Shown in pieces: positions 5,985 to 42,529 of a stretch of DNA of 54,164 nucleotides (its first letter is position 1; every line of letters starts with the position of its first letter). Source of the DNA: a virus; the IMG/VR virus record IMGVR_UViG_3300032954_000018, positions 1-54,164 of that record. The stretch is one strand, 5' to 3'. Position numbers and translations under genes: made by a program. Below the pieces are notes generated by a model. The model saw only the letters and a list, made by a program, of their open reading frames with translations, was not told the DNA's origin and made no database searches.

Positions 5985-6007
5985 GTCCCATAAATCTCCC
6001 TTTTTTG

Positions 6008-6080
6008 TGGGCCTGCTAGGATTTGAACCTAGAACCAAAGCATTATGAGTGCTTCGCTCTAACCGTTGAGCTACAGGCCC
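6008..6080 (-). tRNA. tRNA with CAU anticodon (Met or Ile2)
   Basis: Complete cloverleaf on the minus strand: acceptor GGGCCTG/CAGGCCC (7 bp), TA at 8-9, D-arm GCTC/GAGC, anticodon arm AAGCA-CTCATAA-TGCTT, T-arm CTAGG-TTCAAAT-CCTAG. Length 73 with discriminator A; CCA is not encoded. CAU could be elongator Met or lysidine-modified Ile; the sequence alone does not decide. It lies in the middle of an operon of small genes. Confidence 0.95.
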
Positions 6081-17964: not shown

Positions 17965-18339
17965 TTACGCTGCGGAGAGTGCAGATTCGAACTGCGACTC
18001 CAAAGCGTTGATCTTGGCCGTCTCCTCGGGAGTAAGTGTCTCACCCGAGAAAAGCTTCTCCAAGATTGCGCTTCCCTCCTCCTCGGATACCGGAGCATCC
18101 GCAATCACCTTCTTTGCGGCTTGCTGCTTGGCAACGTGCTTGATGACCGTTTCCTTTGCAGTCCGGGGCGTGAGCGCAGCCTGCATTTCGAGAACTCTGG
18201 CCGTTTGTGCCGGATAAAGTTCCACTCCGAATACCAGACTGACGTAGATTTCGCAGTCCGGCCCGCTGATTGTGTTTCCTGCGGTTTGCTGCTGATCGAA
18301 GTAACGCTCCACAACGAGCAATTGTGCTTTCCTGTCCAT
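17965..18339 (-). CDS. Duplicated-module protein 1, 124 aa
   Basis: Start ATG 18339 behind AAGGGAGAAAAAC. The first 55 residues (LVVERYFDQQQTAGNTIS...ELYPAQTARVLEMQ) align with the 18473-18679 protein (IVNEWAEKQRKAGKDIS...DLRPDQEARVKEMH). The C-terminal half carries ETLTPEETAKINALE, a second P-x-ETA-x-I-x-A-LE element. Its leader (18351-18420) is also duplicated. Family not recognised. Confidence 0.75.
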   Translation of the reverse strand: MDRKAQLLVVERYFDQQQTAGNTISGPDCEIYVSLVFGVELYPAQTARVLEMQAALTPRTAKETVIKHVAKQQAAKKVIADAPVSEEEGSAILEKLFSGETLTPEETAKINALESQFESALSAA

Positions 18340-18350
18340 GTTTTTCTCCC

Positions 18351-18420
18351 TTAACCGTTTCGCGCTTAGGCTATCTCTGAAGCCGCGCTTATTCAGCATA
18401 GAGACCTATTACTCTATGGA
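18351..18420 (-). promoter_or_regulatory. Structured leader RNA, copy 1
   Basis: Minus-strand order: hairpin CATAGAG-TAATAGGT-CTCTATG, then GCGC-GGCT...AGCC-TAA-GCGC, then GAAACGG and the ribosome-binding site. Copy 2 at 18691-18757 keeps the same loop (TAATAGGT), the outer GCGC and the GAAACGG box, while the stems differ by compensating changes (GGCT/AGCC against AACC/GGTT). Candidate cis-regulatory RNA. Confidence 0.65.
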
Positions 18421-18431
18421 CGGCAAAGGGG

Positions 18432-18457
18432 GGGGGGACCGTTTAACCAGTCCCCCC
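18432..18457 (-). terminator. Terminator hairpin after the 18473 gene
   Basis: GGGGGGAC/GTCCCCCC stem read on the minus strand and followed by TTTG. It immediately precedes leader copy 1. Confidence 0.7.
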
Positions 18458-18472
18458 TTCCCCCCTTGAGCC

Positions 18473-18679
18473 TCAATGAACAGGGTTACGAGTGGCATGA
18501 GTCGGATGGATTTCAGAGTGCATCTCCTTGACTCGCGCTTCCTGATCGGGTCGAAGGTCTTCCAAGCAGTTGATAGCAAAGAAAAGATCACTGTCACTGG
18601 CCGATATGTCTTTACCGGCCTTACGCTGCTTCTCAGCCCACTCGTTGACGATGTTGCGCTCTGATTCACGATTTGCCAT
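18473..18679 (-). CDS. Duplicated-module protein 2, 68 aa
   Basis: Start ATG 18679 behind TTGGAGGAAAAC. Homologous to the N-terminal part of the 17965-18339 protein: same AGK-x-IS-x-SD...L-x-P-x-Q-x-ARVKEM pattern. It lacks the C-terminal repeat. Function unknown. Confidence 0.75.
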   Translation of the reverse strand: MANRESERNIVNEWAEKQRKAGKDISASDSDLFFAINCLEDLRPDQEARVKEMHSEIHPTHATRNPVH

Positions 18680-18690
18680 GTTTTCCTCCA

Positions 18691-18757
18691 AATGCCGTTT
18701 CGCGCTTAACCTCTGGTTGCGCTCTTTCAGGATAGGAACCTATTATCCTATCGACGG
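18691..18757 (-). promoter_or_regulatory. Structured leader RNA, copy 2
   Basis: Hairpin GATAGGA-TAATAGGT-TCCTATC (18731-18752), then GCGC-AACC-AGA-GGTT-AA-GCGC, then GAAACGG before the ribosome-binding site of the gene at 18679. Covaries with copy 1. Confidence 0.65.
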
Positions 18758-18758
18758 C

Positions 18759-18780
18759 GGGGCCACAGTTAAGCGGCCCC
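18759..18780 (-). terminator. Hairpin after the 18787 gene
   Basis: GGGGCC/GGCCCC stem; directly precedes leader copy 2, as the terminator at 18432 precedes copy 1. No T tract. Confidence 0.5.
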
Positions 18781-28863: not shown

Positions 28864-29105
28864 TGCGCAACCAAGATACTTTTTCCAAAAATCTTTATGT
28901 GGTAGTTTGGGCAGGCTGTACTATTCCACTTTCTGGAAGAAGTTTTGATAACGAAGAAGAAGCAATAGAGATGTTTAAAGTTTGGATAGATCAACCGGGA
29001 ATACGGATTGAACGGATGATGGCGGCTTTCGTGTTTGATACTCTTTTTACAAAAACTACTTTTGAGAAATATATTGATGAAAACAATAGAAAATCTGGAA
29101 GCTGA
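28863..29105 (+). CDS. Hypothetical protein, 80 aa
   Basis: TAATG overlap upstream. LYVVVWAGCTIPLSG followed by helices. Its 3' end is overlapped by the HNH gene, which may have inserted here. Confidence 0.6.
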   Translation: MRNQDTFSKNLYVVVWAGCTIPLSGRSFDNEEEAIEMFKVWIDQPGIRIERMMAAFVFDTLFTKTTFEKYIDENNRKSGS

Positions 29106-29520
29106 AGAATGGAGACAAGTTAAAAATAGTCTTGATCTTTATCAAGTATCAAATAAAGGAAGAATAAAGAGAATATGTGAAACCCATGAACGATTGCTTA
29201 AAACCCCTCCTACTGCGTTAGGATATCTAAGATTTAATATTAGCATAAACAATAAATCAAAATCTAAGTACGTTCACGTAGCCGTAGCAGAAGCTTTTAT
29301 ACCAAATCCTGAGAAAAAACCCACAGTGAATCACAAAGACGGAGACAAGACTAACAATTGCGTAGGCAATTTAGAATGGGCTACCCGAAGTGAAAACAGC
29401 CAACATGCTTGGGACACCGGATTGTTTAGTCACGAAAAAATGAAATCTTCTCAATTATTAAGGCGGAAAAAAGAAAAAAGTTTGAAAGAAAACCTCATAA
29501 CACAGATTTTGGGTGTATAA
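29077..29520 (+). CDS. HNH homing endonuclease (NUMOD4), 147 aa
   Basis: EEWRQVKNSLDLYQVSNKGRIKR is a NUMOD4 DNA-binding motif; VNHKDGDKTNNCVGNLEWAT is the HNH catalytic core with the conserved NLEW. Mobile, free-standing endonuclease. It ends right at the noncoding tRNA-like cluster, and its stop codon lies in a TATAAT-like -10 (29516-29521). Confidence 0.85.
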   Translation: MKTIENLEAEEWRQVKNSLDLYQVSNKGRIKRICETHERLLKTPPTALGYLRFNISINNKSKSKYVHVAVAEAFIPNPEKKPTVNHKDGDKTNNCVGNLEWATRSENSQHAWDTGLFSHEKMKSSQLLRRKKEKSLKENLITQILGV

Positions 29521-29932: not shown

Positions 29933-30012
29933 TTTCGCCGCCATCTTTGGCGAAATAGCTCAGCGGTAGAGCATCCACTTCATACGTGGAAGGTCGTGGG
30001 TTCGAATCCCAT
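29933..30012 (+). tRNA. Permuted tRNA-like gene with CAU anticodon, candidate 2
   Basis: TTTCGCC-G-CCA (29933-29943), a complete acceptor 3' strand with discriminator and CCA, then TCTTT, then GGCGAAA (29949-29955), perfectly complementary. The body is canonical: TA, D-arm GCTC-AGCGGTA-GAGC, anticodon arm TCCAC-TTCATAC-GTGGA (CAU), variable AGGTC, T-arm GTGGG-TTCGAAT-CCCAT ending 30012. What follows is TTTCAGT, which pairs at only four of seven positions. So the proper 3' acceptor strand lies upstream of the 5' end. Confidence 0.6.
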
Positions 30013-30050
30013 TTTCAGTTCTGTTTTGCCTGTTCTTTTGAATAATTTTC

Positions 30051-36474: not shown

Positions 36475-36552
36475 AGCTGGGTAGAGTAGTCCGGTCCAAC
36501 TCGCCGTCCTCATAAGTCGGAGACATGGGTTCAAATCCCATCCAAGCAACCA
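36475..36552 (+). tRNA. Initiator-like tRNA-Met (CAU), CCA encoded
   Basis: Acceptor with an unpaired first position and one further mismatch (AGCTGGG/CCAAGCA), TA, D-arm GAGT-AGTCCGGTCCA-ACTC, anticodon arm CCGTC-CTCATAA-GTCGG with one mismatch, T-arm ATGGG-TTCAAAT-CCCAT, then A-CCA. The unpaired 1:72 position, D-loop AGTCCGGT and AACCA tail resemble bacterial initiator tRNA, but the three G-C pairs of its anticodon stem are missing. It ends 7 nt before the portal start codon. Confidence 0.8.
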
Positions 36553-40251: not shown

Positions 40252-40525
40252 ATGGCCTATTCACCAGCAGTAAACACGGTTGCATCTGGCAACTTCCCTA
40301 ACGCTTTGGCGATTTATTACGAGCGGAAGGCGATTCCTAACCTTAAGGCTTCGACTCCTTTCCTCGGTTGCACAAAGCAGTGGCCGCTTCCCATGCACAG
40401 CGGTAACACCATTCAGTTCTTCTCCTACAACCTGCTTGGGGCTAACACCCAGCAGTCCACCGAAGGTTTCGTCGGTTCGCCGGTTCCTGAGTCCGCAGTT
40501 AAGATTCAGGCGGTTATTGGTCAGT
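40252..40525 (+). CDS. Major capsid protein, exon 1
   Basis: Begins MAYSPAVNTVASGNFPNALAIYYERKAIPNLKASTPF. Read without splicing it stops at TAA 40525-40527. Joined to 41281-41996 after removal of the intron it gives a 329-aa protein with the junction reading ...VIGQ-Y-ADYTNSSDLL, a smooth in-frame fusion. HK97-type folds often start with such an N-arm. Main head component. Confidence 0.85.
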
Positions 40526-41280
40526 AAACAAAAGCTGCTGACCTAAACAAAAATTCGGCTAAATCGGTTAAAATCTGAAATAGTTATGGTATAATGTCTA
40601 TATAGGAGATTATACATGACTCAGACAATCCCGAGGAAAGACCCCTTACTTATACCCACCGAAACAGATTGGGCTTATATAGCAGCAATAATGGATGGAG
40701 AAGGAAGCTTCTCCATAACCAAAGCTACTATAAAAGATAGAAAAGGAAATCCTTACAACGCATTTGATTGCAAAGTGATGGTTTCTAATACTTCTAAAAC
40801 CCTAATTGATTGGATTTACGAACGTTTCGGCGGTACCTCAAGACTAACCATCAAACACATTAGTAAGAAAGCAAAAGCTAACGGACAGGTTTCACAAAAA
40901 CCTTGTTACAGATGGACAGTTGAGGGATACGAAAATCAAGTAGATTTTATACTTCGAATTCTTCCGTATCTAGTAATTAAGTTAGAGCAAGCTAAAATCG
41001 CCTTGGAATTTGCCAGCATGAAAGGCAAATCAAATCCAAGTAAAAGGCTTGAACTTCATTATAAAATGAAGGCTCTGAACAAAGGGGAATCCGTAACGAC
41101 TAATACGCCGAACGCATTCGAGAGCGATCTGAATGTAAAGATAGAGTCTGACCTTACTGGTGACAGTAAGAGTGGTCCGGGGGTGATCCCGGAAGAGATT
41201 ATAGAATGCGGGAACGCAATAGCTAAAAATCTCCTAGCCTCACTTAAGAAAGCAATTGAGCTAGCCCAAAACAATAAGTG
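40526..41280 (+). mobile_element. Group I intron in the major capsid gene, 755 nt
   Basis: 5' splice site: exon GGTCAGT pairs with intron GCTGACC (P1 with the required T-G wobble at the cut). P7: ACGACTA (41096-41102) with AGAGTC (41143-41148); P8: CATTC (41115-41119) with GAATG (41131-41135); a P9-like CTTACTG/CAGTAAG (41153-41170). The intron ends with G at 41280. The core lies inside the 3' part of the endonuclease frame. Removal restores the capsid reading frame exactly. Confidence 0.85.
40590..40595 (+). promoter_or_regulatory. Extended -10 promoter for the intron endonuclease
   Basis: TGGTATAAT with a weak -35 (GTTAAA) 17 nt upstream; an AGGAG site follows before ATG 40616. It would allow expression independent of the capsid transcript. 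Confidence 0.6.
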
Positions 41281-41281
41281 A
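40616..41281 (+). CDS. LAGLIDADG homing endonuclease, 221 aa
   Basis: WAYIAAIMDGEGSFSI is a LAGLIDADG-type helix with catalytic D/E; a single motif copy, so it works as a homodimer or is a single-motif form. ATG 40616 with AGGAG upstream and its own promoter. The frame continues through the intron core (P7-P9) up to the 3' splice site, so RNA structure and protein coding overlap. Confidence 0.9.
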   Translation: MTQTIPRKDPLLIPTETDWAYIAAIMDGEGSFSITKATIKDRKGNPYNAFDCKVMVSNTSKTLIDWIYERFGGTSRLTIKHISKKAKANGQVSQKPCYRWTVEGYENQVDFILRILPYLVIKLEQAKIALEFASMKGKSNPSKRLELHYKMKALNKGESVTTNTPNAFESDLNVKIESDLTGDSKSGPGVIPEEIIECGNAIAKNLLASLKKAIELAQNNK

Positions 41282-41996
41282 CGCTGACTACACGAACTCG
41301 TCTGATCTTCTGATGGATACCGCGCTCGATGACAAGGGTCTGCTTTCGAGTCTTGCGGAGGAAATGAACTATCGTCTTGCGCTGACCCTTAACACCTTGG
41401 TTTCGACTGCGGCTGATTCCACGACTGGTATTGACAGTACCGTTCTGCAACAGCTTGCTCCCGGTACCTATCTGACTGCCGCGAACCTTCGTACTATCGC
41501 GCAACAGCTTTCCAGCATCAATGCCCGTTTCTTCGAAGCGGACACCTATGCCGGTGTGATTAACCCTCTGGTTACGCACGATATCTACAATGATGCCAGC
41601 GTTAACGGTATCACCGATATCATGAAGCGTAGTCCTGATATGGCTAAGAAGTTGTTCTCCGCGATTGACCGCGATGCTCCTTTAGAGTTTGCGGGTATCA
41701 AGTTCAAGGAAACCACGACTGCTGCTCCCACCACGATCTCGGGTAACCTGTACTACCCCACCTACATCTTTGCCGATGATGCTTTGCTGAGCATCTTCCT
41801 TGGTCCTAACCCCTCGGGCGGGAACAAGAAGAACTACTCACTCAACATCCAGATGGCTCCTGAAGGTGGTTCGGTGTCTGACCCGGCTCGTATGATCGGT
41901 GGCTGGATTTCGTATAACGTCAAATTTACCATAACCCCGCCTCCCGGTACGGTTATGCGTTTACGCAAAATACTCTCAATGACGAGTTCCAGCTAA
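41281..41996 (+). CDS. Major capsid protein, exon 2
   Basis: Begins mid-codon after the intron; the first codon is T+AC (Tyr). Contains LADGKG... style loop replaced by DTALDDKGLLSSLAEEMNYRLA, then VVTHDIYND, KLFSAIDRDAPLEFAGIKF and a beta-rich end. The last residues (RKILSMTSSS) close an HK97-type protein of usual size. Confidence 0.85.
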
Positions 41997-41998
41997 AA

Positions 41999-42529
41999 TT
42001 GTATAGCATCTATTTGGTTACCAACACAATAAATGGAAAGAAATATGTGGGACAGACCAAGCGCAAGGTTTCCGAACGCTGGTCTTCCCACAAACATGAT
42101 TCTAAAAAAGTTGATAATTATTTTTATAGAGCTATACGAAAATATGGGATTCAAAACTTTGAACTTGTGATCTTAGAAACTTGGGATTCACTTGACGAAG
42201 CCAACGAAGCCGAAAGATGGTGGATAAAGATTCTTGATACCACCAATAGAGACTTCGGTTATAACGGTCTCCTAGGCGGTGCTTTTCAACCTACAGTAGA
42301 AACTGGACGGAAGATAAGCGAAGCCAAGAAAAAATCTTTTCAGAATAATCCACAGCTAAGAGAAAATATCCGTCAGTCAAAACTTGGGAAGAAGCTTTCG
42401 CAAGAACACGCGGATAAGGTTAAGAAAAACTTAACTAGAGGATGGTGGACTGGAAAGAAACATACCGATGAACAAAAGGCACATTTAAGTTTAGTGATGA
42501 AAGAGATTCGATCAAAAGGAATAAATTAA
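41999..42529 (+). CDS. GIY-YIG homing endonuclease with NUMOD3, 176 aa
   Basis: SIYLVTNTINGKKYVGQT is the GIY-YIG core (here IYL..KYVGQT), ERWSSHK the second motif, and NFELVILETW a further conserved part. ISEAKKKSF and KLSQEHADKVKKN are NUMOD3 DNA-binding repeats. Start is TTG 41999, 3 nt after the capsid stop, without a clear ribosome-binding site. Free-standing, inserted next to the capsid gene. Confidence 0.87.
   Translation: MYSIYLVTNTINGKKYVGQTKRKVSERWSSHKHDSKKVDNYFYRAIRKYGIQNFELVILETWDSLDEANEAERWWIKILDTTNRDFGYNGLLGGAFQPTVETGRKISEAKKKSFQNNPQLRENIRQSKLGKKLSQEHADKVKKNLTRGWWTGKKHTDEQKAHLSLVMKEIRSKGIN

Follow-up and report, generated by a model that had tools for sequence, protein, structure and literature searches.

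A hammerhead-like RNA with an extra core nucleotide precedes two paralogous phage genes and recurs in other viral contigs

The window analysed here, a stretch of 54,164 nt that makes up the IMG/VR viral record IMGVR_UViG_3300032954_000018, carries on its minus strand two copies of a structured leader RNA, each in front of one of two paralogous genes. The RNA is defined by a fold that covaries, by conserved core letters, by a constant position just before start codons and by its recurrence in other viral contigs. Its elements are arranged as in a type III hammerhead ribozyme, but the catalytic core contains an additional A behind A6. Judged by sequence, these RNAs are most likely a hammerhead-derived subclass, which probably works like a hammerhead. 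The explanation we consider probable is an intercistronic self-cleaving type III hammerhead variant that processes the 5' ends of phage mRNAs.

Results

Two leader RNAs and their genes

Leader 1 spans positions 18694..18758 (-), with the ATG of its gene at 18679. Stem III is formed by GCCGU (18758-18754) and ACGGC (18698-18694), followed by C17 at 18753 with the predicted cut at 18753/18752. Stem I (18752-18746 / 18737-18731) is closed by the loop UAAUAGGU (18745-18738); the core CUGAAAGA (18730-18723), stem II with GCGC at 18722-18719 / 18705-18702, an upper stem and an AA bulge, and GAA at 18701-18699 complete the structure. Leader 2 spans 18354..18424 (-), with the ATG at 18339. Its stem III pairs GCCGU (18424-18420) with ACGGU (18358-18354), C17 is at 18419 with the predicted cut at 18419/18418, and stem I (18418-18412 / 18403-18397) again carries the loop UAAUAGGU (18411-18404). 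The core CUGAAUAA (18396-18389) has an A at position 8. Stem II with GCGC at 18388-18385 / 18365-18362 continues into an upper stem GGCU/AGCC with a UAA bulge (18368-18366), and GAA lies at 18361-18359.

The leaders are about 65-71 nt long, and in both copies 14 bases separate the leader end from the start codon. They have in common the loop UAAUAGGU, CUGAA, UAAGCGCGAAACGG and the Shine-Dalgarno region, whereas the stems differ yet still pair. The two-box pattern TAATAGGT..AAGCGC matched twice in the window, both times at the leaders, with a chance expectation of 0.01. Both folded more stably than dinucleotide shuffles, with z = -2.3 for leader 1 and z = -4.0 for leader 2. For both a three-way junction was predicted, in which GCCGU pairs with ACGGC/U as stem III and encloses two hairpins. 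No further leader-like RNA was found elsewhere in the window, where the next best match had E = 0.74. Because leaders 1 and 2 are duplicates of each other, we counted them as one origin.

An earlier note on this DNA had proposed a duplicated gene with a structured leader. Both are real, and both copies are on the minus strand. The two hairpins described in that note are not separate elements, because the outer boxes GCCGU/ACGGC pair as stem III. Likewise, the GAAACGG box is present, but its pairing with the upstream CCGU, and hence the closing stem, had been overlooked.

The gene behind leader 1 (P0001, 68 aa, 18471..18679, -) has the Shine-Dalgarno sequence GGAGG at 18689-18685, and that behind leader 2 (P0002, 124 aa, 17965..18339, -) has GGGAG at 18350-18346. 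P0002 is paralogous to P0001 across the first 60 residues, as had been claimed: the gap-free 60-residue alignment scored 81 versus a maximum of 52 in 3000 shuffles, with a BLASTP E of 2e-4 and an identity of about 28%. The N-terminal part of P0002 was predicted with high confidence as three helices; structural searches with this model returned no significant match, and no RNA-binding domain was recognisable in either protein. Homologues of the pair were not found in viral contigs, phages or terminase relatives. A weak match to Streptomyces phage Endor1 crossed gene borders and was rejected. The gene of a very acidic protein of 70 aa (P0003, 17677-17950, -) adjoins both paralogues; it also lies behind a hairpin, GGGGCUG..CAGCCCC, but without a ribozyme.

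G+C-rich hairpins stand directly in front of both leaders. One (18759..18780, -) extends up to the base that precedes stem III of leader 1 and has no U-tract; the other (18424..18468, -) lies directly upstream of stem III of leader 2 or has one base in common with it. The reading of these hairpins as terminators did not hold, as both lack a U-tract and no terminator-like site was called there on the minus strand.

Other features of the window

The major capsid gene looks split into an N-terminal piece at 40252-40527, ending ..AVIGQ, and a C-terminal piece at 41313-41996 (+), with about 0.8 kb between them (40527-41313, +). An ORF in this gap (40616-41281) resembles a LAGLIDADG endonuclease by eye, while Pfam gave no match; a group I intron match between the pieces (RF00028, 30.3 bits, E 3.5e-5) does not reach the curated cut-off of 50. 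The capsid gene is followed directly by a GIY-YIG endonuclease gene with a borderline NUMOD3 match (41999-42529, +), and a further homing-type endonuclease gene with HNH_3 and NUMOD4 is located at 29080-29520 (+). All three tRNA genes have the anticodon CAU (6007-6080, -; 29949-30021, +; 36475-36552, +), and some of them may be tRNA-Ile2 rather than tRNA-Met.

Relatives in viral contigs and covariation

IMG/VR was scanned with the pattern GCGC..TAAGCGCGAAACGG, which left GUC, CUGA and the loop unspecified. The scan yielded 17 stretches, seven of which showed all parts of the structure, with GUC, CUGAA and a loop of the UAANNGGU type. After two wider scans the set comprised 10 distinct sequences in 13 viral records, i.e. 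the window and 12 contigs. The records are metagenomic fragments, and because the scans used exact patterns, members without the GCGC of stem II or with other loops would have been missed. A two-gap pattern of CCGTC and CTGAA gave 33 viral matches, all of them by chance with stem I unpaired.

In the alignment of the 10 sequences 97.6% of the cells were standard pairs, compared with 30-45% in slid versions of the alignment. Of 22 pairs, 15 had changed on both sides with pairing retained, a number reached in 0 of 500 shuffles. GUC, CUGAA and GAAA were invariant. The invariance of GCGC in stem II is uninformative, because the search patterns required it. Taken together, the covariation strongly supports the earlier proposal of a cis-acting structured RNA with compensatory changes.

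The leader was not found in relatives with the same terminase gene, in cultured phages or plasmids, or, under strict filters, in 794 sampled bacterial genomes of two phyla. In the genome contig scan the structure was present in none of 80 loci among the matches listed. One match, in G029, was set aside because its position looks like coding sequence. A different hammerhead-like RNA, CUGACGA-U-[stem II], in which a single additional base precedes stem II, was seen on the minus strand of the loci L144 and L320; in L144 it lies a short distance in front of the start codon of a gene with at least 150 codons.

Hammerhead layout and an off-consensus core

The order of elements, stem III, GUC, stem I with its loop, CUGA.., stem II with its loop, GAAA and stem III, is that of a type III hammerhead. 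The three stems surround one junction with stem III open and stems I and II closed by loops; this was predicted unguided, and the covariation agrees. Nearly all of the hammerhead core letters are present: U16.1-A15.1, C17, C3-U4-G5-A6, A9 with one exception, G10.1-C11.1 and G12-A13-A14. The UH cleavage site between stems III and I, where H stands for A, C or U, is GUC here; this GUC and the A15.1-U16.1 pair occurred in 10/10 sequences and were not imposed by the GCGC..TAAGCGCGAAACGG scan. The G10.1-C11.1 pair and the GAA(A) after stem II were likewise found in 10/10, though the search patterns partly forced both.

The core, on the other hand, does not read CUGAnGA but CUGA-A-N-R-A, with one extra A after A6 in all ten sequences. 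Position 9 was C in one sequence. In hammerheads G8 pairs with C3. Position 8 was A in three of the ten (leader 2 and the loci L052 and L054), which kept C3 without a compensating U3; in hammerheads C3-G8 can covary to U3-A8 (PMC3088659). Because leader 2 combines A8 with C3, leader 1 would be the better candidate for activity and leader 2 the worse.

Loop I has the form U(A/U)ANNGGU with a single exception of 9 nt, and in most members three conserved nucleotides, (U/A)(A/G)A, bulge out on the 3' side of stem II. In other hammerheads stems I and II are held together. No pseudoknot pairing between the ends of these stems was evident by eye; by analogy, loop I (UAANNGGU) and the bulge of stem II are plausible docking partners.

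Descriptor, covariance-model and Rfam searches

A descriptor of the three stems and the core was run on both strands of 3.3 Mb of fetched sequence. True sites scored 38-49 and everything else at most 26, which was also the peak in reversed sequence. The descriptor recovered the published PaP3 hammerhead (locus L306) and the ordinary CUGAUGA hammerhead of a high-GC phage, G018. As an independent check, a covariance model built only from these two ordinary hammerheads ranked leader 1 first in the 54-kb window with E 1.2 and placed the extra base right after CUGA. It found one extra-A copy of G018 at E = 0.007, and it ranked the known site third in L067 and second in L049. Taken alone, this evidence is weak. 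The Rfam hammerhead models did not match the extra-A members even at permissive thresholds; ordinary phage hammerheads reached 19-21 bits with RF00008, below the cut-off. A riboswitch or another known leader, our first guess, was dropped, as Rfam gave no match at any useful score. Because the core departs from CUGAnGA and Rfam is without a match, we did not file these RNAs as ordinary hammerheads.

Genes and hairpins around the RNA in other phages

The context of the RNA is constant. It lies between genes on the same strand, just before a start codon and with a hairpin directly upstream. The genes behind it are not, and no gene family is common to all. A DUF932 gene follows in one phage group (L049, L052, L054, L063, L067, L109), the two paralogues follow in the window, and two small unrelated genes follow the extra-A copies of G018. 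In addition to these two copies G018 has the ordinary CUGAUGA hammerhead (L057 4197-4248, -). All three of its RNAs (L057 / G018:C1 2433-4250, -) have the same orientation, precede start codons and lie within 2 kb. As in the window, the G018 cluster contains two small genes that are paralogues (BLASTP E 2e-5).

For the window leaders the lowest-energy fold predicted is the ribozyme itself, beside strong G+C hairpins. In the DUF932 group, for which two sequences were folded, the lowest-energy structure was a non-ribozyme fold. There the two strands of stem III would be taken up by competing hairpins, (G)ACGGG-UUUU-CCCGU(C) upstream and GGGAAC-GUUCC downstream, and the ribosome-binding site is covered by another hairpin. 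The predicted competition could serve the timing or switching of cleavage in this group.

Discussion

Cleavage of the extra-A RNAs, its rate and its effect on expression are what we infer from sequence and structure; that the family cleaves itself is, on this basis, a good deal more probable than that it does not. The transcript would fold as a three-way junction and then self-cleave directly behind the C of GUC. At the 3' end of the upstream message this would leave a 2',3'-cyclic phosphate together with the G+C-rich hairpin, which would cap this cleavage product. The downstream message would begin with a 5'-OH, followed by the hairpins of stems I and II and an exposed ribosome-binding site. 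The ribozyme would therefore be a site of RNA processing, at which individual phage messages are separated and their ends protected. Given the extra A after A6 in all members, cleavage is probably slower than that of an ordinary hammerhead, and it may require that the conserved loop I (UAANNGGU) docks with the stem II bulge, (U/A)(A/G)A. A more specific version, which we put forward tentatively, is that of a phage hammerhead subclass with a fixed insertion in which cutting is slow or conditional; competing hairpins, UAANNGGU docking or a factor would then determine whether the message is cut immediately in front of its ribosome-binding site.

An RNA that is derived from the hammerhead but does not cleave, or does so only upon a trigger, would instead serve as a cis-regulatory switch of translation or mRNA stability that responds to a ligand, a protein, an ion or temperature. 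We regard this as unlikely, though it deserves the most weight among the alternatives. In its favour, an insertion like that in the core should perturb the active site, and G and A are both accepted at position 8 while all else is strongly constrained; the DUF932 group, where the predicted minimum is a non-ribozyme fold, the hairpins take the strands of stem III and the ribosome-binding site is covered, points the same way. However, neither C17 nor any strand of the catalytic pocket varies, a constancy that a purely structural role does not need, the predicted minimum in the window is the ribozyme fold, and the genes share no function that would hint at a ligand.

A passive element at the mRNA 5' end, either an RNase III site or a cluster of stabilising stem-loops, would fit the location between same-strand genes beside strong hairpins and stems that vary while pairing is kept. 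Yet the stems, at 4-7 bp, are short for an RNase III substrate, and conservation of the GUC / CUGA / GAAA core, the octaloop and the bulge is not expected of passive stabilisers; we consider this improbable. Autoregulation, in which the encoded protein would bind its own leader as a translational operator, as the earlier note had suggested, is the least probable of all: both paralogues have the same leader near the ribosome-binding site, but they are only about 28% identical and without a recognisable RNA-binding domain, the unrelated genes behind the same RNA elsewhere (DUF932 and small genes) leave autoregulation unsupported, the letters conserved in the RNA belong to the catalytic core of a hammerhead, and the lack of a common gene family disfavours binding by the encoded protein.

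The self-cleaving hammerhead variant remains the preferred reading. Few catalytic sequences are as well conserved as CUGAnGA, for which one survey listed only 3 atypical cores in 583 ribozymes (PMC10085705). A subclass with a fixed weakening insertion and a tolerated change of G8 is a natural test of the rigidity of the active site, and it may be a sign that regulated hammerheads occur in nature. The position before start codons, and in one phage beside an ordinary hammerhead, offers a testable system for the role of ribozymes in phage mRNAs. In the accessible literature searched, a conserved extra-A phage subclass appears to be undescribed; its novelty lies in the conserved insertion, the common loops and the recurrence across phages.

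Comparison with known hammerheads

Precedents for hammerheads in phages are PaP3, Bcep176 and HHphage (PMC3088659). The type III hammerheads of phages such as PaP3, which resemble RF00008, agree with the window RNAs in the order of stems and core, the UH site, GAAA and the position just upstream of a start codon. They differ in that PaP3 keeps CUGAUGA, whereas in the window RNAs a single nucleotide is added after A6, stem II has a constant GCGC and a 3-nt bulge, and loop I reads UAANNGGU.

In the haloviruses HF1/HF2 the start codon of a helicase gene follows 13 nt after HHphage, and the 5' end of the major transcript coincides with the cleavage site, a precedent that supports the processing role proposed here (PMC3088659). 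HHphage and HHmeta resemble the RNAs described here in being phage hammerheads whose core carries insertions and which lie 13 nt before a start codon. In contrast, their insertion adjoins C3 (2a, 2b) and HF1/HF2 are salt-adapted, while that of the window RNAs follows A6 (PMC3088659).

The closest counterpart in the position of the extra nucleotide is the 'A6a' hammerhead, a single rare variant with an insertion after A6 and low but detectable activity (PMC3088659 Figure 5). It is probably the Solibacter usitatus example (PMC3088659 Figure S6). Unlike this single variant, the extra-A RNAs form a conserved subclass with loops of its own, present in at least 13 viral records and in some members with A8.
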